NCBI RefSeq assembly: GCF_030408775.1
Contig: NZ_CP047210.1
Coordinates: 62,001 to 126,000 of the forward strand
Reading direction: 5' to 3'
Length of the DNA: 64,000 nt
Source of the DNA: Corynebacterium fournieri
GTDB lineage: Bacteria; Actinomycetota; Actinomycetes; Mycobacteriales; Mycobacteriaceae
Shown piece after piece: positions 26,316 through 64,000 of this stretch. Made by a program: the position numbers and the translations under genes. The notes under the pieces were generated by a model that saw only the letters and a program-made list of their open reading frames with translations, had not been told where the DNA came from and did no database searches. How positions within the stretch are numbered: position 1 is the first letter of the stretch; each line of letters opens with the position of its first letter.

Positions 26316-26954
26316 ATGCGCACCAAACTTATCGCACTGGCGAGCACGCTCGCACTCGTGTGCGCGCCCATTTCCCCAGCTCATGCGGAAGATTCATACG
26401 AGCCCACCTCGGTCGTTCCGGGCTTGACCGCCACCATCGAGCCCCCACTGCCCCGCGGCGCGGCGTGGTATGAGTCGGCTTCCTTGCCCGAATGGGCGAT
26501 GCTCACACCCGACGGGACCATCCGTCTCGAGCCGGGGGAGGAGGTTACCCCCGGCACCTACGAGTGGCCCGTGGTCGCGACCTTCCCGGACGAGACCACC
26601 CAGACCTACCCGGTGCGCGTCACCGTCGGCACTGACAGCGACGCGTCCGACGAGGGCGCCGTGATCGACGCGTTCGTGCAGTACGCCCCGGAGGTGTCCC
26701 ATCGTTGCGCTGCCACCGCCCTCGGCGTGGGCCTGCCGCTGTTGGTGCTGCTGCCGCTGGGGTTCGCCTCCCAGATGAGCTTCCCGTTCGTCGCCCGTCA
26801 GAACAACCTGCAGCTGCAATTGGAGAACCTGCCGTTCCTCGTGGACGTCAAGCTGCGCGACCTCAACTCCAAGGACGTGGACATGGGCATCGCCGGCGTC
26901 CTCGCCGCAGCGGGCCTGGCCGGCGCCGGCGCCATCATCTCCCAGTGCCAGTAG
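26316..26954 (+). CDS. Small secreted Rib/YPDG-type surface protein with two-helix Cys anchor
   Basis: 212 aa. Signal peptide MRTKLIALASTLALVCAPISPAHA, then one short beta domain with the Rib/alpha-like pattern (TPGTYEWPVVATFPDETTQTYPVRVTV), then the anchor module: HRCAATALGVGLPLLVLLPLGFASQ (helix 1), a polar loop of about 45 residues, and helix 2 (GIAGVLAAAGLAGAGAIISQCQ) ending two residues after a Cys. This is the shortest complete copy of the module seen in four proteins here. GGGAAG precedes the ATG; TATAAA at 26284-26289 could be its -10. It is convergent with hrpB, overlapping by 20 bp. Confidence 0.78.
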   Translation: MRTKLIALASTLALVCAPISPAHAEDSYEPTSVVPGLTATIEPPLPRGAAWYESASLPEWAMLTPDGTIRLEPGEEVTPGTYEWPVVATFPDETTQTYPVRVTVGTDSDASDEGAVIDAFVQYAPEVSHRCAATALGVGLPLLVLLPLGFASQMSFPFVARQNNLQLQLENLPFLVDVKLRDLNSKDVDMGIAGVLAAAGLAGAGAIISQCQ

Positions 26955-45505: not shown

Positions 45506-45517
45506 ATGCGCGCAGTA

Positions 45518-46282
45518 CTAGAAGTTCAGCTTGCTCATGATCGGCGCCGGGATGGCCTTCAGCACCAGAGAGATGGGGCCGAAGAGCTTGTGCACGAACA
45601 CGGAGGACTTGCCGGCCAGGGCGGCCTCGACGGCGGCCTCGGCGACATCTTCCTTGTTCACGGTGAGCGGGGCCTCGTCGAGGCCGTCGGTCATCTTGGT
45701 GCGCACCTGGCCGGGGCGGACCACGGTGACGGTCACGCCGTCGTCCTTGAGCGCCTCGCCGAGCTGCAGGTAGAACCCGTCGATGCCGGCCTTGGAGGCA
45801 CCGTAGACGAAGTTGGAGCGGCGCACGCGCTGGCCCGCCACGGAGGACAGGGCGATGATCTTGCCGTTGCCCTGGCGTTTCATGTGCTGGCCCAGCAGGA
45901 CGCCGACGGACATCGGGGCGGTGAAATTGGTCTGCGCGGACGCGACTGCCGCAGCCTGGTCTTGCCAGAGCTGTTCCTGGTCACCGAGGGTGCCAAAGGC
46001 GACCACGGCAACGTCGACCTCGCCGTCCTCAAAGGCCGCGTCGATGACGGCCGGGTGGGAGGCGAAATCGAGCGCATCGAAGTCGATCAGGCGCACGTGG
46101 CCTGCGCCGGCTTGTTGGACGGCCGAGATCGCGCCGTCGATACGCGGGGAGTCCTTGCGCGCACACAGGGTGACGGTGGGGTTGCCGCCGCGGGAGGCGA
46201 GCTCAGCGACGATGGCGAGGCCGATCTCGCTGGTGCCGCCGAGGAGCAGGATGTGCTGGGCTTGGCCTACTGCATTCAACAT
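45518..46282 (-). CDS. dprE2: Decaprenylphosphoryl-2-keto-ribose reductase DprE2
   Basis: 254 aa SDR enzyme: LLLGGTSEIGLAIV (NAD loop), ALSSVAGQRVRRSNFVYGASKAG (Ser and YxxxK in parts). With DprE1 it epimerises decaprenyl-phospho-ribose to the arabinose donor used by AftA and Emb. AAGGAG is 8 nt before the ATG; the gene starts 12 bp after dprE1. Confidence 0.95.
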   Translation of the reverse strand: MLNAVGQAQHILLLGGTSEIGLAIVAELASRGGNPTVTLCARKDSPRIDGAISAVQQAGAGHVRLIDFDALDFASHPAVIDAAFEDGEVDVAVVAFGTLGDQEQLWQDQAAAVASAQTNFTAPMSVGVLLGQHMKRQGNGKIIALSSVAGQRVRRSNFVYGASKAGIDGFYLQLGEALKDDGVTVTVVRPGQVRTKMTDGLDEAPLTVNKEDVAEAAVEAALAGKSSVFVHKLFGPISLVLKAIPAPIMSKLNF

Positions 46283-46294
46283 GGTCGGTTCTCC

Positions 46295-47692
46295 TTAGTT
46301 CAGCTCAAGTCGGCGGGACATGTCGGACGCGAACACGCCGGTCGGGTCGATGTTGCGGCGGGTTTTCAGCCAGCCGGGCAGCTCCGGGTACATCTTGTGG
46401 AACTTCTCGGCGGAGGTGCGGGACTCCTTAGCCAGGTAGAGGCGGCCGCCGAACTGCATGACCTGGTCGTCCAGGCGGTCCAGGAACTCGTTGAGGCCCG
46501 GGCGGATCGGGAAGTCCACGCACACGTTCCAGCCCTTCATCGGGTAGGACAGCGGCGCCTGGTTGCCCTCGCCGAACAGCTTGAACACGTTCAGGGCCGT
46601 GTAGTGGCCGGAGGTCTGGATGTCGTAGATGATGTCCTTGAACGGCTCCACGGCGTCGGTCGGCACCACGAACTGGTACTGCAGGAAGCCGGCCTTGCCG
46701 TAGCCGCGGTTCCACTCGCCGATGAGATCCAGCGGCTGGTAGAACTGCGTGAGGTTTTTGATGTCGTTGCGCGACGGCTTGCCCATCAGGTAGTACGCCT
46801 CGCCGATGGCCATCAGCGACAGCTTGTTCATGGTCCAGGACGGGAAGACGTCCGGCACCGTCATCAGCTGCGGGGCGTTGAACTTCAGCGGGTTCTTGGC
46901 CAGCTTCGGCGCGTACTCCTTGAGCTGGTCCAGGGTGGCCAGGGAGCCGCGGGAGATGGTGGAGCGGCCGGTCTTCGGCGGGCCGGAGATCGCGTCGAAC
47001 CAGGCGGAGGAGTAGGTGTAGTTGACCTCGGAGCCGTCGGAGTGCAGCGCGATCGTCTCGTCGAGGGTGTCGGTGCGGTCGGTGTCCGAGATGAAGTAGG
47101 CGGTCTCCGTGAACGTCATCTGGATGCGCGCGCGCAAAATGATGCCGGTCAGGCCCATGCCGCCGACGGTGGCCCAAAACAGCTCTGCGGTCTCGCCGGT
47201 CGGCTCCAGGTGCAGCACCCGGCCGTCGGCCACCAGCAGCTCCATGGACAGCACGTGGTCGCCGAAAGATCCTGCGGAGTGGTGGTTCTTACCGTGAATG
47301 TCGGGGCCGATGGCGCCGCCGATGGTGACCTGACGGGTGCCCGGCAGCACCGGAACCCACAGACCGTACGGCAGCGCGGCCTTCATCAGCTGGTCCAGGG
47401 TCACGCCTGCGTCCACGTCGACGATGCCGGTGTCCGGGTCGATGGAGTGGATGCGGTTCAACGGCGTCATGTCCACGACCAGGCCGCCGCCGTTTTGGGC
47501 GGGGTCGCCGTAGGAGCGGCCCATGCCGCGGGCGATGATGCCGCGCCGCTTGTGCTCCGGCAGTTCGGAGTTTTCGTCGGCGACTTGCTTGACTGCTTGC
47601 GCGATGGTGTCCACGTCAGCGGTGGAAAGGACCTGCGCGGTGGAAGGGGCGGTGCGGCCCCAGCCGTAGAGAGATTGGGTCGTCAGTTCCAT
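46295..47692 (-). CDS. dprE1: Decaprenylphosphoryl-beta-D-ribose oxidase DprE1
   Basis: 465 aa flavoprotein. FAD-binding part: [44 protein letters not shown] (in parts), and the substrate-side Cys in [10 protein letters not shown], which corresponds to the benzothiazinone target Cys387 of M. tuberculosis. It oxidises decaprenyl-phospho-ribose to the 2-keto form. The ATG at 47692 is chosen because TAGGGT (complement 47700-47705) lies 7 nt upstream; the ATG two codons earlier would sit within that gap. Confidence 0.96.
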
Positions 47693-47712
47693 GGCCATAA
47701 CCCTACCGCCGG

Positions 47713-47949
47713 TTACAGGTCCATGATGCTACGAATCTCCGCGGGGAGCTCCTCTTGGCTGGAAATCACAGGTTTGCCCGCTTCCTTGTGCTCGCGCAGG
47801 ATCTCGTAGATGCGGGTGCGCCCCTTCGAATCCACGAAGGGCAATTCCTCTGCCATGAGGCGGACCATGAAGTCGGACAACGGAGCGTCGATACGCTGCG
47901 CTGCCTCGTGGATCGCGTGCGGGTCGTCGCCTTTGTAATGCTTCCTCAT
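47713..47949 (-). CDS. Small protein of unknown function
   Basis: 78 aa, charged and helical, no signal peptide: [20 protein letters not shown]..., with [29 protein letters not shown] do not recognise it. ATG at 47949 follows TAGGCT by about 8 nt. It lies between dprE1 and a divergent gene, 20 bp upstream of dprE1. Confidence 0.6.
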
Positions 47950-50131: not shown

Positions 50132-51121
50132 ATGGGGAAAGTGCATGACGGAATGAATGTCGAGTTCGAAGCGGTGCTCACTCACGCGAGCCAACGGACT
50201 GCGGGGATGGAGTACAGGAGGGTCAGCGGGCAGCGCTATCTACCGGTGGACCATTGCCGGGAGCAGTGGCAGGTGGAGCTGGGGGCCAAACACCACCCGC
50301 GCGGGGTGCTCTACTGGGCCCCGGCAGCGGCGCGCGCAGTTGCCCATACAGTGGAGCGGCCCGGTGCCGTGGTCGGCGGGTTTTCGGCACTGGCGTTGTA
50401 CGGGCTGCCTTTCCTGGTGGAGGGCGCGGACACGCTGTTGTTCTGCGCTACGGCCGCCCGGTCCGCAGTTGGAGGAGAGCACTCGCCGACAGTGCGGAGG
50501 CCCTCGCGTGCCCCTGTCTCCACCTGGCAGTTGCACCACCGCGGAGTTGCCCTTCGGGCGGCTGCCCCCGCTGATGCGGTGGTGCAAGCGCTACAGCAGG
50601 TGAAAAAGGGTGAACACAGGTGGGGTGTTGTCGATGTAGCAGGCCGGCAGCCGTCGGAAATAATGGCGCTCCAGCTCGTCGACTGCGCTCGTCGCTTCCT
50701 CGGTCTGTCGGTGCGAGAGATCCAAGTCGCGGCGAGGGGGAAACTTGACTCGCGTTGGCTGAAAAGCCTTCTGGCCAGCAGCAGCTGCCGTGCGGACTCC
50801 CCCAAGGAAACGGAGATGCGCTTGCTGGTTACGGCCCTAGCCGACCGCTACGGATACACCGTGGAAGAACAAGTGCCGCTCATCGTGGACGGCAAGGTCG
50901 TCACCGTCTTTGACCTGGCTATTCCGGAGCTGAAGATCGCCATCATGTACGACGGCGCCCACCACTTGGAGTGGAAACAACGAAAGAAGGACTCGTCCAT
51001 CACCATCAAGATGACAATGGCTGGTTGGACGCCAGCGCGTTGCGCCTCGGAGACCATGTTCGAGTGCATCAGGCTGATCGAAGGGCTGATGCAGAAAAGT
51101 TCAGCCGGGCAGCCCGGCTGA
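50132..51121 (+). CDS. Putative nuclease-fold protein of unknown function
   Basis: 329 aa. The N-terminal part (GVLYWAPAAARAVAHTV, PGAVVGGFSALALYGLPFL) resembles AbiEi-antitoxin-like domains of actinobacterial proteins; the C-terminal part (SPKETEMRLLVTALADRYGY, VFDLAIPELKIAIMYDGAHHL) has the spacing of a Vsr/DUF559 PDDEXK nuclease: Glu, Asp, then E-x-K. These assignments are by pattern and uncertain. The start is unsure because ATGs at 50132, 50144 and 50156 are all near. It splits the wzt-glfT1 pair and has weaker codon bias than its neighbours, suggesting later arrival. Confidence 0.55.
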   Translation: MGKVHDGMNVEFEAVLTHASQRTAGMEYRRVSGQRYLPVDHCREQWQVELGAKHHPRGVLYWAPAAARAVAHTVERPGAVVGGFSALALYGLPFLVEGADTLLFCATAARSAVGGEHSPTVRRPSRAPVSTWQLHHRGVALRAAAPADAVVQALQQVKKGEHRWGVVDVAGRQPSEIMALQLVDCARRFLGLSVREIQVAARGKLDSRWLKSLLASSSCRADSPKETEMRLLVTALADRYGYTVEEQVPLIVDGKVVTVFDLAIPELKIAIMYDGAHHLEWKQRKKDSSITIKMTMAGWTPARCASETMFECIRLIEGLMQKSSAGQPG

Positions 51122-55891: not shown

Positions 55892-58800
55892 ATGAGCGAG
55901 AATAAACGACCAAACACGAGGAAAAACCGCTGGTGGCGCAGTGTCGCCGCGGTAGTAAGCACGGTGGCGCTAGGCGTCGGCGGAGTTGCAGTGCCGCCGG
56001 TAGCGGGGGCGTACATCCAAGATGACTCTCTCACCACTCAGCACGGGGACGACCTTGGTGCGAAGCCGGCCACTTCGATCTCAGTTAGCCCTGAGAAGGT
56101 GAATGTTCAGCCAGGTGACACCTTCGACATGGAAGTACGTGTCGACTCTGAGGTGCCCCATCCAGAGAGTTCTGCCGGGACATATGGCGAATCGGATGCG
56201 ACTGCGTTGATCGTAGAACTGCAGCTAGATAAAAGGTTCACGGTGGACCCTTCCGAAGCGGTCTTCAAGTGGAACGATGGACAAAGCCGTGAGTTGGCAG
56301 ACTTGAGAGAAGACTCGGCGACGACTCAATCGTTTTTGTTTGAGTTCGATCAAAAAGCGTCCTTGGGAGCGAATCCTGGCTTCACGCTAACCCTGCCGGT
56401 AACTGTCTCGGAAACTGCCGAACAGGGAGACGAGATAGATGTCACTGTGGCATCTCAAGTTGTTATCCGCCCAACGCTGGATTGGACCTACGGGGATTTT
56501 CGTCTAGAAGAGACAAACGACGAATGCGTTCAAAAAGCTGTAGGAGATCTTAAGTTTGACAATCCGGACCAATACGGTACTTGGCTCGCTGACCTGTGGT
56601 TAGGCTCTGACTCGCCCAACTTCTCGCTTGAAGGTGATCCTGTCTTCAAAGTGACGGGGCCTGAGGGTGAGGACTTGACGCAAGAGGTGTTCGCTTCAGC
56701 GGACTATCCTCAGTCGACCCTTGATCCGTCCGAGTCTCCGGAAATCTTCACAGGGGCGGATGGAACTAGCTTCGAGAACTACCGTTGGCTTCGTCGTTAC
56801 GAGTGGCGTCTTAATGAGAAGGCCTTTTCGGGAGACATCTGGATACCTGAAGGGTCCACGGTGCATGTCGAACAAAACATTCGATCCTCGCAGTGTGCGT
56901 TTTCCCCCGACGAGAAGTTCGGAGTGAAGATTGAGAGTCGCAACGCTCCGCTTTTCACAAATGCGGTAGACACGCTGAACGCGACTGTAGCTGCGGAGCC
57001 GGAGACACCTGAGGATCCGCCTGCAGAACCACCTGCGACGGTAACCAAATCCGTGACTGCGACCACGACTGTCACCACTGAATCAGTGACGGCTACGGTA
57101 ACTCCGACGACGGTGACCACGACGCCGACCTCGACGGCACCGACGAAGGTGACCACGCCGACCTCGACGGCACCGACGAAGGTGACCACGCCGACCTCGA
57201 CGGCACCGACGAAGGTGACCACGCCGACCTCGACGGCACCGACGAAGGTGACCACGCCGACCTCGACGGCACCGACGAAGGTGACCACGCCGACCTCGAC
57301 GGCGCCAACGGAGGTGACGACTCCGACCTCGACGGCACCGACGAAGGTGACCACGCCGACCTCGACGGCACCGACGAAGGTGACCACGCCGACCTCGACG
57401 GCCGGCACCGTTACCACCACAGTTGGGACCAAGACCGTCACGGCAACCACGACGCCGACGACCGTCACTACCACCCCTACTTCGACCGCACCGACGGTAA
57501 CGGTCACTCCGACTGCTACGGCAGACTGTGATTGCGAACCCACGACCACCACCAAGACTGAAAAAGTCCCGGAGCCGGTGCCAACCACAATTCACACCAC
57601 CACGACTGCGGAAGCGCCGAAGCGCAGCTCCATCGGAGACAAGGTCTGGGAGGACACCAACGGTGACGGTAAGGAGGACCCGGATGAGAAGACGGGTGTT
57701 CCGGATGTGACCGTGATTGTGAAGGATCCGGAGGGCAACGAGGTCACTCGTACCGTCACCGACGAGGACGGTAACTGGAAGGTTGACGTCGAGCCGGGCG
57801 ACTACGTTGTTGAGTACGTTCCGGGTGGTCACACCCCGTCGCAGCCGGATCAGGTCAAGCGCACTGTGACGATCAAGCCGGGTGAGAAGCGCGACGACGT
57901 TGACCTTGGTGTTCTGCCGTCTGGTTCTGTTGGTGACCGTGTGTGGGTTGACGAGGACGGCGACGGTAAGCAGGGCGAGAACGAGAAGGGCCTTGAAAAC
58001 GTTGTGGTGTTGGTGTCCCGTGAGGGTGAGCCGACGCGTTCTGCAGTGACCGATGCAAACGGTGATTGGAAGATTGAGGGTCTGAACCCGAACGCTGAGT
58101 ACGACATTCGCTTTGTGAAGCCGGATGGCTGGGAGGTCACCGGTAAGGTTCCGGGTTCGGATGAGTCTGGTCTGGCTTCGAAGGTGACGGTGAAGCCGGG
58201 TGAGTACAACGACACTTACGACCTTGGTCTGAGGAAGCTTGATACGTGTCGCGAGTGTGAGCCGGTCAAGCCGGGCACTATTGGCGATCGTGTCTGGATT
58301 GATGAGAACGGTGACGGCAAGGAAGACCCGAATGAGAAGACGGGTGTTCCGGATGTGACCGTGATTGTGAAGGATCCGGAGGGCAACGAGGTCACTCGTA
58401 CCGTCACCGACGAGGACGGTAACTGGAAGGTTGACGTCGAGCCGGGCGACTACGTTGTTGAGTACGTTCCGGGTGGTCACACCCCGTCGCAGCCGGATCA
58501 GGTCAAGCGCACTGTGACGATCAAGCCGGGTGAGAAGCGCGACGACGTTGACCTTGGTGTTCTGCCGTCTGGTTCTGTTGGTGACCGTGTGTGGGTTGAC
58601 GAGGACGGCGACGGTAAGCAGGGCGAGAACGAGAAGGGCCTTGAAAACGTTGTGGTGTTGGTGTCCCGTGAGGGTGAGCCGACGCGTTCTGCAGTGACCG
58701 ATGCAAACGGTGATTGGAAGATTGAGGGTCTGAACCCGAACGCTGAGTACGACATTCGCTTTGTGAAGCCGGATGGCTGGGAGGTCACCGGTAAGGTTCC

Positions 58801-59734
58801 GGGTTCGGATGAGTCTGGTCTGGCTTCGAAGGTGACGGTGAAGCCGGGTGAGTACAACGACACTTACGACCTTGGTCTGAGGAAGCTTGATACGTGTCGC
58901 GAGTGTGAGCCGGTCAAGCCGGGCACTATTGGCGATCGTGTCTGGATTGATGAGAACGGTGACGGCAAGGAAGACCCGAATGAGAAGACGGGTGTTCCGG
59001 ATGTGACCGTGATTGTGAAGGATCCGGAGGGCAACGAGGTCACTCGTACCGTCACCGACGAGGACGGTAACTGGAAGGTTGACGTCGAGCCGGGCGACTA
59101 CGAGATTGAGTACCGCCCGCGCGACTGGAAGCCGACCGACCCGAAGCGCGTGACCCAGAAGGTCACTGTGGAAGAGGGTAAGGATTACCTGGACCTCGAC
59201 CTTGGTGTGCAGAAGCCGAAGCCGGGCGAGCCGACCCCGCCGACCGAGAAGCCGGAGAAGGGCTCGTCGAGCGAGACGCTCGACCGCTGCGTGGCCAACG
59301 CTGTGCGCTCGCCGCTGCTGTACTTGGTGCCGGTGGCGCTGCTGGGTGCCTTCGGTGGCGAGCTCGCCCGTCCGTACATGGGCGCGATCAACGAGCAGGT
59401 CAACCAGATCAACGCGCAGTTCCAGGAGGCCATGCGCCGCAACAGCCCGGACTGGGGCCACGGCGGCCGTGGCGGTCGCGACAACGACCAGTTCGCTGAG
59501 CTGCGTGGCCAGATCGATGCGGCGAACCGTCGTATCGCGGAGCTTGGACAGGATCCGAACGTCCAGCGCTTCGGCACCGTCGCCGCTGGCATCATCGGAC
59601 TGATCGCCGCGGGCGGCGTGCTCTACGACTGGTGCTCCAACGAGAAGGGCGAGGCCTTCACCTCCATCGGTGGCTCCTCCGCCAAGGAGTCCGGTGCGGA
59701 AGGCCGCCAGTCCTCCAGCAAGGACGCGGCATAA
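55892..59734 (+). CDS. Large SdrD_B-repeat surface adhesin with two-helix Cys anchor
   Basis: 1280 aa. GGAGG is 6 nt before the ATG. Signal peptide of about 40 residues with a basic start (NKRPNTRKNRWWRSV) and cleavage near VAGA. Residues ~45-365 form a beta-rich N-terminal adhesin-like region with few cysteines. About 375-560 is a Thr-rich stalk including eight and a partial ninth copy of the 11-mer PTSTAPTKVTT. About 577-1110 holds five SdrD_B domains (GDRVWVDEDGDGKQ-type calcium motifs), in part coded by a 648-bp tandem duplication, with a linker TCRECEPVKPG. The end is the anchor module (LDRCVANAVRSP...helix...loop...helix...YDWCSNEKGEAF) and a Ser/Lys tail. No LPXTG. A likely adhesin; length can change by recombination. 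Confidence 0.9.
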   Translation: MSENKRPNTRKNRWWRSVAAVVSTVALGVGGVAVPPVAGAYIQDDSLTTQHGDDLGAKPATSISVSPEKVNVQPGDTFDMEVRVDSEVPHPESSAGTYGESDATALIVELQLDKRFTVDPSEAVFKWNDGQSRELADLREDSATTQSFLFEFDQKASLGANPGFTLTLPVTVSETAEQGDEIDVTVASQVVIRPTLDWTYGDFRLEETNDECVQKAVGDLKFDNPDQYGTWLADLWLGSDSPNFSLEGDPVFKVTGPEGEDLTQEVFASADYPQSTLDPSESPEIFTGADGTSFENYRWLRRYEWRLNEKAFSGDIWIPEGSTVHVEQNIRSSQCAFSPDEKFGVKIESRNAPLFTNAVDTLNATVAAEPETPEDPPAEPPATVTKSVTATTTVTTESVTATVTPTTVTTTPTSTAPTKVTTPTSTAPTKVTTPTSTAPTKVTTPTSTAPTKVTTPTSTAPTKVTTPTSTAPTEVTTPTSTAPTKVTTPTSTAPTKVTTPTSTAGTVTTTVGTKTVTATTTPTTVTTTPTSTAPTVTVTPTATADCDCEPTTTTKTEKVPEPVPTTIHTTTTAEAPKRSSIGDKVWEDTNGDGKEDPDEKTGVPDVTVIVKDPEGNEVTRTVTDEDGNWKVDVEPGDYVVEYVPGGHTPSQPDQVKRTVTIKPGEKRDDVDLGVLPSGSVGDRVWVDEDGDGKQGENEKGLENVVVLVSREGEPTRSAVTDANGDWKIEGLNPNAEYDIRFVKPDGWEVTGKVPGSDESGLASKVTVKPGEYNDTYDLGLRKLDTCRECEPVKPGTIGDRVWIDENGDGKEDPNEKTGVPDVTVIVKDPEGNEVTRTVTDEDGNWKVDVEPGDYVVEYVPGGHTPSQPDQVKRTVTIKPGEKRDDVDLGVLPSGSVGDRVWVDEDGDGKQGENEKGLENVVVLVSREGEPTRSAVTDANGDWKIEGLNPNAEYDIRFVKPDGWEVTGKVPGSDESGLASKVTVKPGEYNDTYDLGLRKLDTCRECEPVKPGTIGDRVWIDENGDGKEDPNEKTGVPDVTVIVKDPEGNEVTRTVTDEDGNWKVDVEPGDYEIEYRPRDWKPTDPKRVTQKVTVEEGKDYLDLDLGVQKPKPGEPTPPTEKPEKGSSSETLDRCVANAVRSPLLYLVPVALLGAFGGELARPYMGAINEQVNQINAQFQEAMRRNSPDWGHGGRGGRDNDQFAELRGQIDAANRRIAELGQDPNVQRFGTVAAGIIGLIAAGGVLYDWCSNEKGEAFTSIGGSSAKESGAEGRQSSSKDAA
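57121..57402 (+). repeat. 33-bp tandem repeat in the adhesin stalk
   Basis: Eight near-identical 33-bp units coding PTSTAPTKVTT (one unit has E for K) plus a degenerate ninth. Such repeats are prone to slippage and change the stalk length. Confidence 0.9.
57684..59102 (+). repeat. 648-bp tandem repeat of SdrD_B domains
   Basis: Unit 1 57684-58331, unit 2 58332-58979, and a partial unit 58980-59102. The units agree base for base over the lengths compared, including third codon positions, so the duplication is recent or kept alike by recombination. Each unit codes two SdrD_B domains. Confidence 0.9.
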
Positions 59735-60552: not shown

Positions 60553-61984
60553 TGTCATGAGTCGCGTCATGCTTGACGCATGAGTCGCGACATGCTGGAC
60601 GGACCGGCATCCCAGTTGTTTTTGTTCTGGGGTGCCGGTTTTGTTCATTTGGGGTGCAGTGGTGGGTCGCCGTGTTTCCAGTAGGCCTTTTGGTAGTCGC
60701 AGGCGGTGTCGATGTAGTGCTCTGTGATGACTTCTCCGGTTTCGACCAGTGATGTGATGATGTGGTTGTCGGTGATGACCATGAGGATTTTCTTGTGTTT
60801 GTAGGCGCGTCCGATGCCGAGGTGGAAGAGTTTGCCGGCGTAGCGCACGGAGACTTTGCCGTTTTTGTCGACTGTGTCGTTTCGGGTGCGCCATTCTTCT
60901 TTGGGGTTGTCGTTGGGTGTGGCTTTGACTCCGGTGGTGTATGCCTGCTGCGGGGTGCGTCTGCCTAGGGCGCGGTGGGGTCGGGTGCAGTTGTAGTATT
61001 GGCGAAACTCGTTGAGGAGTTGTTGCAGCTCATCGATGGTTTGTGCTGGGGGTCGGGCGGTGATCCATTTTTTGATGGTTTGGTGGAATCGCTCAATTTT
61101 TCCTTGGGTTTGGGGGTGGCCTGGCCGGCCGTTTTTCTGTTGGATTTTGTGTGCGACGAGCACTTTTTCGAATGCGTTTCGCCCGCCTTTGCGCCCGGCT
61201 AGGCGGGCGGTGAACACCAGTCCGTTGTCCGTCAGCGTGGATGCTGGCGGGCCGTATGCGCCGATCAGGCGGGTGAGTTCGGCGGCGACGGCGGGGCCTG
61301 TAAATGCGGCGGCCGCGGTGATTGACAACAGGTATCGCGAGTGGTCGTCGAGGAAGTCGAGGACTTCTACCCGCGTGTTATCAGCGAGGAAGAGGTGGGT
61401 GATGTCGGCTTGCCAGCATTCGTTGGGCATCGCGGCTTCGAAGCGGATGTAGGAGCTTTTCGGCTTCTTTTGCGGCTGCGGGGTGATCAAGCCCTCGTTG
61501 GTGAGGATGCGGCGGATCGTTGAGGTTGAGGGGGCGCGTTTGCCGGCCTGTTCGAGGTGGTAGGCAATGGTTTCGGGCCCGGCGTCGAGTCCGTGTCGGG
61601 TGAGTTGTTTGCGGATGCTGATGATGTCGTTGCGTAGTGCTTCCGGGACGGCGTGCGGGTGGGTGTGCGGGGCGCGTGATTTCGGTGCGATTGCCTCGGC
61701 GCCGCCGGCGTCGTAGGCGTTGAGGATTTGGTGGACGCGTTGGCGCGAGATGCCGAATCGTTTGGCGACGTTGGTGGGTGTGCCGCCTTGGCCTCTGACG
61801 GCTCTGACGATGGCGATGTTGCGGTTAGGACTGTTCATAGTGTCAAACATGTCCCGACTCACCAGTCAAACGTCACCGACACGACTGAGGTAACCCTAAG
61901 TGTCAACTATGACGCGACTGACCTGTCAAGGATCACAACGCCTTCCGCAGGCACACCCCGTCAAATATGTCGTGACTTCAGACA
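60553..61984 (-). mobile_element. IS481-family insertion sequence, 1432 bp
   Basis: Ends: the left begins TGTCATGAGTCGCG and the right (minus strand) begins TGTCTGAAGTCACG; 19 of the first 25 bases agree. Flanked by a 15-bp direct repeat. Each end carries extra copies of an AGTCRCGWCAT-like motif: left 60560-60577 and 60583-60600; right 61842-61859, 61902-61919 and 61960-61977. One transposase gene fills the centre. Family and boundaries come from these features; a database match was not made. Confidence 0.85.
60645..61850 (-). CDS. IS481-family transposase
   Basis: 401 aa. N-terminal helix-turn-helix region (NVAKRFGISRQRVHQILNAYDAGG), then a DDE/rve catalytic core: Asp in WQADITHLF, Asp in TLTDNGLVF, Glu in QGKIERFHQTIKKW, and a C-terminal part with RPHRALGRRTP. 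No frameshift, so it may be active. The start may be 61850 (MFDTMNS) or 61838 (MNSPNRN); the upstream right-end repeats overlap its promoter region. Confidence 0.92.
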   Translation of the reverse strand: MFDTMNSPNRNIAIVRAVRGQGGTPTNVAKRFGISRQRVHQILNAYDAGGAEAIAPKSRAPHTHPHAVPEALRNDIISIRKQLTRHGLDAGPETIAYHLEQAGKRAPSTSTIRRILTNEGLITPQPQKKPKSSYIRFEAAMPNECWQADITHLFLADNTRVEVLDFLDDHSRYLLSITAAAAFTGPAVAAELTRLIGAYGPPASTLTDNGLVFTARLAGRKGGRNAFEKVLVAHKIQQKNGRPGHPQTQGKIERFHQTIKKWITARPPAQTIDELQQLLNEFRQYYNCTRPHRALGRRTPQQAYTTGVKATPNDNPKEEWRTRNDTVDKNGKVSVRYAGKLFHLGIGRAYKHKKILMVITDNHIITSLVETGEVITEHYIDTACDYQKAYWKHGDPPLHPK

Positions 61985-62133: not shown

Positions 62134-64000
62134 TTAGCTCTGGCGGGTCTCCACCACCGGGGCCGCGACAGTTGCGACCGGCTTGTTGTTGCCGTTGCTG
62201 CTGCCGCCGACGGTGACATCGACACCGTTGACGCGTGGGATGCAGGTGCGGACGGCTGCGGTCACGAGCAGGGCAGCGACGACACCAACTGTGGCGCCAC
62301 CTGCGGCGGTGACCTGCGCAGGCTCGATGTTGAACTGGCGTGCAGCGTCGTTGAATGCGCGCTCAGCCCGCTGGGCAGTGTCGCTGAGGCCCGGGACGTA
62401 AACCTGGCTGGCCAGTGCCAGCGGGATCAGAGCGACCAGCGGGAGACCCAAGCCCACCAGGGAAGCGATGCAGCGCGGGTCGGAGGAGCCGCCGTCGACG
62501 CCGACGTTCGCATCGATGAGGTGATCGCCGTTTTCGTCCTGGCGCTTGCGGGAGGAGCCGAAGCCCACCAAGCCGCCGTTGGCGTTGCCCGTGACGAGCA
62601 CCTCAGCGTTGGCGTTGCCGGTTGCCACGACACTGTTGTTGGACCCGTTGTTGGATGGGTTCGCGTTGCCGGTGACGACGGCGCTGTTGTTGGACCCGTT
62701 GTTGGATGGGTTCGCGTTGCCGGTGACGACGGCGGAGTTGTTCGACCCGTTGTTGGATGGGTTCGCGTTGTTAGTCACCACGGCGCTGTTGTTGGACCCG
62801 TTGTTGGATGGGTTCGCGTTGTTAGTCACCACGGCGGAGTTGTTCGAGCCGTTGTTGGATGGGTTTGCGTTGTTAGTCACCACGGCGCTGTTGTTGGACC
62901 CGTTGTCGTTGGCGTTGCCGGTCACAACTACAGACGGGTTCGCGTTGCCGGTGACGACGGCGGAGTTGTTCGAGCCGTTGTTGGATGGGTTCGCGTTGTT
63001 AGTCACCACGGCGGAGTTGTTCGAGCCGTTCTCGTTGGCGTTGCCGGTGACGACTACGGACGGGTTGGCGTTTCCGGTGACAACTACGGACGGGTTCGCG
63101 TTGCCGGTCACCACGGCGGAGTTGTTCGAGCCGTTGTTGGATGGGTTTGCGTTGTTAGTCACCACGGCGCTGTTGTTGGACCCGTTGTCGTTGGCGTTGC
63201 CGGTCACAACTACAGACGGGTTCGCGTTGCCGGTGACGACGGCGGAGTTGTTCGAGCCGTTGTTGGATGGGTTCGCGTTGTTAGTCACCACGGCGGAGTT
63301 GTTCGAGCCGTTCTCGTTGGCGTTGCCGGTGACGACTACGGACGGGTTGGCGTTTCCGGTGACAACTACGGACGGGTTCGCGTTGCCGGTCACCACGGCG
63401 GAGTTGTTCGAGCCGTTGTTGGATGGGTTTGCGTTGTTAGTCACCACGGCGCTGTTGTTGGACCCGTTCTCGTTCGCGTTGCCGGTAATGACCGGGTTCG
63501 CGTTGCCCGTGATGACTACCGTCGGGTTGGCGTTGTTGGACAGATTGTCCTTGATCTCGACAGTCGGGTTGGCATTGCCGGTGATGACCGGGTTGCCATT
63601 GTTGGACAGGTTGTCCCGCGGGTTGACGTTGTCGGTGATGACCACGTTCGGGCTGCCGTTGTTGTTGCCGATGTTCGACGGGTTCGCGTTGTTGGTGATC
63701 ACAACGTTGATCAAGCGTCCCGCGCCGTCACCGCTGGTTCCACCCTGATTGCCGCTGGTTCCACTCTGATTGCCGGTGTTTCCGCCCCCGTTACCGCCGG
63801 TTAAGCCACCGATGATGTCGCCCAGGCCGCCGATCAGATTGCCACCGGTACCGGCACCGATCAGGCTGCCCAGGATTGGCCCGAGGATGCTAGCGACGGT
63901 GCCTGCCGTTTCTGCGGGTGTCTTTGACGGGTTCTTGGCCGCAATCTTCAGGGTGGTCTTGAACGTGTCAGTTCCGTCGTTCACCTCAATCGGAAGGTCG
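62134..64000 (-). CDS. Asn-rich repeat surface protein, 3' part (two-helix Cys anchor)
   Basis: At least 622 codons; the frame is open to the window edge so the N-terminus is outside. The visible start is helical and Gly-rich (GSLIGAGTGGNLIGGLGDIIGG), then a Gly/Asn linker, then about 300 residues of a repeated unit of roughly 8 + 8 residues: (V/T)GNANPS.. and NNGSNNSAVVT, sometimes with VVVTGNANPS. This periodic Val/Asn pattern suggests a beta-solenoid with asparagine ladders. After a short spacer comes the anchor module: PRCIASLVGLGLPLVALIPLALASQ (helix), a polar loop of about 45 residues, a second helix (GGATVGVVAALLVTAAVRTC) and a short tail. Function unknown. Confidence 0.82.
   Translation of the reverse strand, partial: DLPIEVNDGTDTFKTTLKIAAKNPSKTPAETAGTVASILGPILGSLIGAGTGGNLIGGLGDIIGGLTGGNGGGNTGNQSGTSGNQGGTSGDGAGRLINVVITNNANPSNIGNNNGSPNVVITDNVNPRDNLSNNGNPVITGNANPTVEIKDNLSNNANPTVVITGNANPVITGNANENGSNNSAVVTNNANPSNNGSNNSAVVTGNANPSVVVTGNANPSVVVTGNANENGSNNSAVVTNNANPSNNGSNNSAVVTGNANPSVVVTGNANDNGSNNSAVVTNNANPSNNGSNNSAVVTGNANPSVVVTGNANPSVVVTGNANENGSNNSAVVTNNANPSNNGSNNSAVVTGNANPSVVVTGNANDNGSNNSAVVTNNANPSNNGSNNSAVVTNNANPSNNGSNNSAVVTNNANPSNNGSNNSAVVTGNANPSNNGSNNSAVVTGNANPSNNGSNNSVVATGNANAEVLVTGNANGGLVGFGSSRKRQDENGDHLIDANVGVDGGSSDPRCIASLVGLGLPLVALIPLALASQVYVPGLSDTAQRAERAFNDAARQFNIEPAQVTAAGGATVGVVAALLVTAAVRTCIPRVNGVDVTVGGSSNGNNKPVATVAAPVVETRQS
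62632..63540 (-). repeat. DNA repeats coding the Asn-rich units
   Basis: Blocks such as ttgttggatgggttcgcgtt recur with small changes, in single-unit and longer (about 240-bp) higher-order repeats; for example 62929-63055 and 63220-63330 look nearly the same. Copy number is expected to vary between strains. Confidence 0.85.

Follow-up and report, generated by a model that had tools for sequence, protein, structure and literature searches.

Introduction

Substrates of the LPXTG sortases carry an LPxTG-type motif followed by a single helix and a basic tail, and signals of the PEP-CTERM and archaeosortase type are made up of a short motif, one helix and a basic end and are served by a dedicated partner enzyme. 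Little is understood about the targeting of large proteins to the mycolic-acid outer membrane and their retention there. In C. glutamicum, the S-layer protein PS2 (CspB) is anchored in the mycomembrane after export by a C-terminal hydrophobic helix; the excerpt of the report used here does not mention a sortase (PMC12337289). Proteins of C. glutamicum are also O-mycoloylated, according to excerpts of two reports, on Ser and less often on Thr, in flexible stretches rich in Ser, Gly and Ala, often at several positions per protein and in a Cmt1-dependent manner (PMC11066868, PMC5310785). The sites described there include both disordered, Ser-rich termini of PorB (Ser-7 and Ser-98) and positions close to the termini of PorH and ProtX; as far as these excerpts go, there is no strict consensus from which O-mycoloylated proteins could be predicted from sequence (PMC11066868, PMC5310785).

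Sortase-independent C-terminal anchoring and O-mycoloylation are thus already known. What is new in the locus described here is a domain family that has no name in the libraries searched.

Four tails in the Corynebacterium fournieri window

The host genome is a single contig of 2.39 Mb, and the window (the whole stretch of DNA analysed, 64,000 nucleotides) covers its positions 62001-126000. A sequence-only reading of the window had claimed that four surface proteins with unrelated ectodomains end alike, and all four tails are indeed present. Each has the same order: an Arg directly ahead of a first cysteine (Cys1), about 23 hydrophobic residues that include two conserved prolines (helix 1), a linker, about 22 hydrophobic residues (helix 2), a second cysteine (Cys2) and a short end. 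The Cys1-Cys2 spacing is 113, 79, 114 and 75 residues in the proteins at 1-648, 26316-26954, 55892-59734 and 62134-64000, respectively, giving a long type (113 and 114) and a short type (79 and 75). Because these spacings have to hold helices of about 23 and 22 residues, the polar loops come to about 30-34 and 68-69 residues, and not to the 45 and 85 or so estimated originally. The two types are homologous (probability 98%, E ~2e-13 in a profile-profile comparison).

The first tail (positions 1-648, + strand) is of the long-linker type and terminates a giant surface protein with a stop-to-stop frame of 3326 codons. (This protein and the one at 62134-64000 extend beyond the window, and their frame sizes were taken from the whole-genome search.) Its putative hairpin module, which matches the profile, spans 136-480, with Cys1 at 136-138, helix 1 at about 139-207, helix 2 at about 412-477 and Cys2 at 478-480. 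Three Gly-Ser-Ser patches lie between 523 and 642 (523-531, 556-564 and 634-642), all behind Cys2 and none ahead of Cys1, and the C-terminus reads GSSE. The giant protein is adjoined by a LURP-one-related/scramblase-like protein (705-1268, +).

The second carrier (26316-26954, +) is a protein of 212 residues with a signal peptide, recognised by eye, a RibLong domain and a short-linker tail whose module lies at 26706-26948 (Cys1 26706-26708, Cys2 26946-26948). It is the least typical of the four, with a single residue past Cys2 and a Gly-Ser-Ser patch on neither side. The third (55892-59734, +; 1280 residues) starts with a signal peptide, again by eye, continues with Thr/Pro repeats and SdrD B-like domains, and ends in a long-linker tail with the module at 59288-59635 (Cys1 59288-59290, Cys2 59633-59635) and Gly-Ser-Ser patches upstream (59261-59269) and downstream (59672-59680). 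It holds an array of TTPTSTAPTKV repeats, and its SdrD B-like domains occur in long blocks that are duplicated almost identically.

The fourth protein, on the - strand (62134-64000), is represented by the C-terminal 621 codons of a stop-to-stop frame of 846 codons and is a repeat-rich surface protein with a short-linker tail. Its module occupies 62242-62472, with Cys1 at 62470-62472 and Cys2 at 62242-62244, preceded by a Gly-Ser-Ser patch at 62482-62490 and followed by another at 62197-62205. The ectodomain (62500-63800, -) consists of Asn-rich repeats, about NANPSNNGSNNSAVVTG, in near-identical copies. An rve-type integrase/transposase gene (60645-61862, -) sits between the third and fourth tail genes. 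Elsewhere in the window, the frames 45506-47809 (+, 767 aa) and 50132-51121 (+, 329 aa), both putative genes, have no Pfam match at E 0.001.

Carrier proteins and gene neighborhoods

That the tail is shared by differing ectodomains is borne out by Pfam, which finds RibLong in one window carrier and SdrD B-like domains in another. Among seven relatives from the named genomes scanned in the same way, four have Rib or RibLong domains and three have no match at E 0.0001. One tail protein (L133, 2446-6264) combines Rib/RibLong, a lamin-tail domain, an endonuclease/exonuclease/phosphatase-type domain and collagen repeats, and is possibly a surface-anchored nuclease.

Signal peptides, judged by eye, are present on two of the window carriers (26316-26954 and 55892-59734) and in seven of eight further start regions in the host, the eighth being unresolvable. 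Of the 53 tail frames in named loci, about 36 begin with a plausible signal peptide by the same judgement; the others comprise 12 without a signal peptide by script and 5 false ones, several of them cut by the end of the locus. The signal peptides of many tail proteins (L116-L121, L131, L134) share a stretch like RRRGTS[IV]AAAALSxALVAP, which may act as a separate targeting signal or may reflect paralogy.

Tail genes are often clustered: of the 33 named loci, which measure at most 12 kb, 16 contain two or more tail frames. The neighbors that recur at these loci resemble, by eye, PurT, PurA and a YhgE/Pip-type protein, in a few groups of loci that have the same neighbors, and are read as marking shared chromosomal sites. 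No obvious dedicated partner gene is found among them. Neighbors of this housekeeping-like kind speak for a general enzyme, for instance a mycoloyltransferase, rather than for a dedicated sortase, but they are no proof of it.

Distribution of the family

A profile built from the tails and searched across genomes, the check proposed with the original observation, shows that the family extends well past the first four members. With profile A2, the host genome alone has 10 tails, and 80 of 242 Corynebacterium genomes are positive. Searches of the host genome with single sequences already yield further copies; this, together with the profile matches across the genus, makes it clear that the likeness of the tails is not due to chance. 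Profile A3 (27 rows) matches 90 of the 242 genomes at E <=0.001, from which nine borderline genomes (E 6.6e-5 to 9.0e-4) were set aside to leave about 81. One of the nine, G086, owes its match to a small coiled-coil protein (L063) without the cysteines, which is not a tail, and neither is the similar protein of G126 (L064), a genome outside the nine. Both proteins, which we take to be of the DUF3618 type, have one helix near the C-terminus and match the tail profile weakly. The remaining eight borderline genomes were excluded by analogy with G086.

Positive genomes have from 1 to 15 tail matches, at the ends of open frames of up to 3414 codons (profile A3). About 161 of the 242 genomes are without a tail, some 148 of these having pks13; the tail is thus not a universal device. 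The named scan, whose reach is limited to close relatives so that absence from it carries little weight, returned 33 loci, all of them in Corynebacterium, from species that include C. haemomassiliense, C. wankanglinii, C. gottingense, C. meitnerae, C. bouchesdurhonense, C. phocae, C. pilosum and C. riegelii.

Outside this genus, the sole convincing tail in a family sample of 401 genomes from 31 genera belongs to genus g3 (L059, E 3e-21), with both cysteines and a Gly-Ser-Ser patch upstream. (Genera g9 and g29 gave matches, at E 0.0018 to 0.0097, that extend over just a part of the model and were left uncounted.) In a phylum sample of 396 genomes, no tail was found except in the host itself. 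These searches scored the best 10 first-look candidates per genome in the family and phylum samples and the best 17-18 in the set of 242. The module is nearly confined to Corynebacterium.

Conserved cysteines and Gly-Ser-Ser patches

At E 1e-6, 201 loci gave 216 domain segments. In the Cys1 column of these, 206 have cysteine, 8 a gap and 2 some other residue; in the Cys2 column, the corresponding numbers are 204, 11 and 1. Removal of 17 partial HMM segments and of identical tails left 153 unique complete tails. (By eye, several of the 17 keep both cysteines, and others are cut at one end.) Every one of the 153 has both cysteines and no cysteine in between, and so does the pair recur in all 77 tails that remain at 70% non-redundancy, which settles the question of cysteine conservation raised with the original observation. 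Both columns are likewise invariant in the 27 rows of A3 (an initial M represents a V codon in rows L025 and L028). Of the 77, 65 come from loci outside the A3 listing, some of these being window tails under other locus ids. One or both cysteines are missing from L123, from the frame at 6588 in L109 and from the frame at 1905 in L056, which appear truncated or decayed. In L080 (genome G014), the tail is split over two reading frames, one of which encodes helix 1 and the other helix 2.

Arg or Lys directly precedes Cys1 in 129 of the 153 unique complete tails (64 of the 77). Beyond Cys2, the proteins continue for a median of 32 residues (the longest for 321), and this end is Ser-rich, has a median net charge of -1, and in 76 of the 77 tails has no further cysteine. 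The visible ectodomains are poor in cysteine as well, with 78 in 33,005 residues and none at all in 43 of the 72 that have at least 100 residues visible. Cys1 and Cys2 are therefore each other's likeliest partners in a putative disulfide.

The module is flanked by Gly-Ser-Ser patches, a feature that the sequence-only reading left unmentioned. GSS occurs within the 20 residues before Cys1 in 44 of the 77 tails and behind Cys2 in 61, whereas shuffling of the same residues would give 6.8 and 18.7, respectively. It is found on both sides in 33 tails and on neither in 5; 33 tails have none ahead of Cys1 and 16 none behind Cys2. For comparison, only 12 of 1614 ectodomain 20-mers hold GSS. GSS and Cys1 are separated by anything from 2 to 14 residues, a variability that suits a flexible patch better than a folded part.

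Relation to known families

The module had been described as nameless, and no Pfam or NCBIfam model covers it. Scans of 27 members gave matches to single members only, at E 0.0002 or weaker and, where a curated cut-off is given, far under it; one member weakly matched two models of cyanobacterial HpsJ (E 0.0002), one of them named exosortase-associated. No CTERM domain model was among the matches. Among the papers listed from an open-access library, none was recognised as a description of the module. The reported absence of LPXTG holds for the whole family: LPxTG occurs in none of the 153 tails and the looser L[PAG]xTG in 5, which, with two helices and an end that is not basic, rules out an LPXTG sortase signal.

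Mycolic acids and mycoloyltransferases

The host has a Cmt1-like protein (L138, host genome 1027842-1029209) whose best solved match is Cmt1 itself (4h18, E 8e-38). It has a Ser-rich N-terminal region and ends in GSSGSSE. Among 12 relatives of at least 67% identity, all 11 that could be read have a Ser-rich end (L222 was left unread), preceded by letters that drift. Relatives at or below 66% identity are without the GSS end, which is therefore a property of the near clade of the host and not of all tail-bearing species; in all, only 10 of the 28 proteins read, host included, have GSS within their final 60 residues, and among those that lack it are several from tail-bearing genomes. At E 1e-40, this subfamily is present in 62 of the 242 genomes, and tails are found in 44 of the 62 with it versus 37 of the 180 without. 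A role as the dedicated enzyme was rejected, since the correlation is mostly one of kinship: within the near clade, as set by eye, the figures are 21 of 24 versus 11 of 17 (p = 0.13).

Loss of pks13 accompanies the loss of mycolic acids, according to the excerpt used here of a report that names four species without the operon as well as uncertain ones (PMC8733736). In our set, pks13 was identified by a thioesterase match in a frame of 1583 codons and by reading the sequence. Tails are absent from all 12 near-complete Corynebacterium genomes in which pks13 was not matched (hypergeometric 0.007 if they were independent). This is consistent with a link to mycolic acids rather than strong support for one, because the 12 probably represent few independent losses. 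A pks13 match is also lacking in two genomes of 53% and 77% completeness. In the second of these, eight tails occur alongside a Cmt1-like protein that shares 90% identity with the one in the host, and its pks13 gap was therefore treated as incompleteness. As a control, PorB was matched in 49 of 101 sampled genomes and in none of the 12 without pks13, a weak comparison because only three of the 12 (G090, G125, G235) were seen in the sample, with 32 negatives unlisted.

Where might the tail be inserted?

The simplest reading of a module shared in this way is that it serves as an anchor. We would give an even chance to the fuller proposal that the tail is a disulfide-closed helical hairpin that anchors exported proteins in the mycomembrane, with the help of O-mycoloylation and without a sortase. 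The N-terminal signal peptide, which was recognised by eye on many carriers, would direct export, after which the tail would fold as a two-helix hairpin, its ends clamped by a disulfide between the conserved cysteines. The hairpin would then enter the mycomembrane or attach to it, and an enzyme of the Cmt1/MytC type would O-mycoloylate at least one serine in the Gly-Ser-Ser patches ahead of Cys1 and behind Cys2. The outcome would be a combined hairpin-plus-lipid anchor in which sortase plays no part. Membrane insertion, the disulfide, the mycomembrane as the site and the lipidation of the tail are steps that we infer from sequence.

The picture drawn in the sequence-only reading, with both helices crossing the membrane, implies a hairpin in the inner membrane, and the outer one was not considered there. 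Both helices would span the cytoplasmic membrane, the loop would be cytoplasmic, and the cysteines would pair outside. A signal peptide followed by later hydrophobic stretches normally gives just this topology; both helices contain a 19-mer with a mean Kyte-Doolittle value of at least 1.6 in 67 of the 77 tails, hydrophobic enough to cross, and Cys1 and Cys2 stand at what would be the outer helix ends. On the other hand, a cytoplasmic linker would be expected to hold basic residues. The linker (32-93 residues, measured from one best 19-mer to the other) has on average 4.2 basic and 5.6 acidic residues, and its net charge is positive in 11, neutral in 12 and negative in 54 of the 77 tails, figures that stand without a control set of inner-membrane hairpins. 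(In L077, a unit of about 29 residues is repeated in tandem, which makes for a longer loop.) The rarity of a net positive loop makes for a poor fit, an argument and not a proof. The basic residue adjoining Cys1 is on the supposedly outer side, and the Gly-Ser-Ser patches and the near-confinement to Corynebacterium are left unexplained. We think the mycomembrane the more likely target, with PS2 as a precedent for helical C-terminal anchoring of an exported protein there, and the inner-membrane hairpin on the whole unlikely, even if one might expect the inner membrane to retain helices of such hydrophobicity.

Could the tail be an assembly domain? It would then form a helical oligomer or a pore-like unit, in the manner of PorB, that attaches to the mycomembrane but does not span it as a hairpin. 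Among the best 60 of 123 matches to solved structures (up to E 10), most are viral spike and other helical proteins, with a best E of 0.0008; these match the linker weakly and are read as reflecting its probable coiled-coil similarity, there being no convincing solved relative by sequence among the 60. In the excerpt consulted, PorB is described as a helical bundle with a disulfide (PMC5310785), and all 12 PorB-family proteins fetched have Ser-Ser in their last 20 residues and a Cys pair 52-63 residues apart. However, there is no profile match between the two. When A3, its long type and its short type were compared with 12 trimmed PorB-family sequences, the probability was 0.0-0.2%, versus 98% for the comparison of long with short tails as a positive control, and none of the 27 tail members matched PorB at E 0.01; homology to PorB (PF11565) was therefore rejected. 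Moreover, the mean best 19-mer of 2.0 is above what a soluble bundle would need. We regard an assembly domain as improbable.

Least probable is a cleaved sorting signal, cut by an exported protease or transpeptidase that attaches the protein elsewhere as in CTERM and sortase systems, for while the tail does occur on unrelated ectodomains with up to 15 matches per genome and the Gly-Ser-Ser ahead of Cys1 could be a cut site, known sorting signals have one helix and a basic end, and the tail has two helices, a second conserved cysteine, a Ser-rich and slightly acidic end, and no obvious dedicated partner among the recurrent neighbors of the 33 named loci.

Discussion

More tentatively, and with confidence clearly below even, we propose that the tail is a general outer-membrane sorting domain of Corynebacterium, in which a disulfide-closed alpha-helical hairpin and mycoloylated flanking Gly-Ser-Ser patches would make up one module that directs proteins to the mycomembrane surface. 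It would then be a bipartite device of protein and lipid that serves up to about 12 different adhesin-like proteins per cell, some of them longer than 3000 residues. If the hairpin-plus-lipid anchor in the mycomembrane is correct, the modular tail, with its invariant cysteines and its Gly-Ser-Ser patches, would provide one sequence signature for O-mycoloylated proteins, predict surface proteins in many corynebacteria, and explain a set of giant proteins that are presently unannotated. It could also be used as a portable display anchor.

How does the tail compare with the known systems? Like LPXTG/sortase anchoring, it would be a C-terminal anchor common to unrelated surface proteins, from which it differs by its two helices and by the lack of both an LPxTG and a basic end. 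It does not fit the PEP-CTERM/archaeosortase type, having two helices, a neutral to acidic end and no obvious dedicated partner. PS2, known here by description only, has one predicted terminal helix, and the description mentions neither paired cysteines nor flanking Gly-Ser-Ser; the tail, in contrast, has two hydrophobic helices between its cysteines in place of a single C-terminal one. As in the tails, the O-mycoloylated proteins PorA, PorH, ProtX, Cmt1 and others are described, in the excerpts available, with flexible Ser/Gly-rich patches at their termini or loops, a likeness that would fit lipidation of the tail. (No tail protein was matched to the published C. glutamicum table.) With PorB/PorC (PF11565), the tail has in common a Cys pair and Ser-rich termini, the pair being 52-63 residues apart in PorB and 75-129 in the tails; PorB, however, is a small free-standing protein, whereas the tail is a module appended to others.
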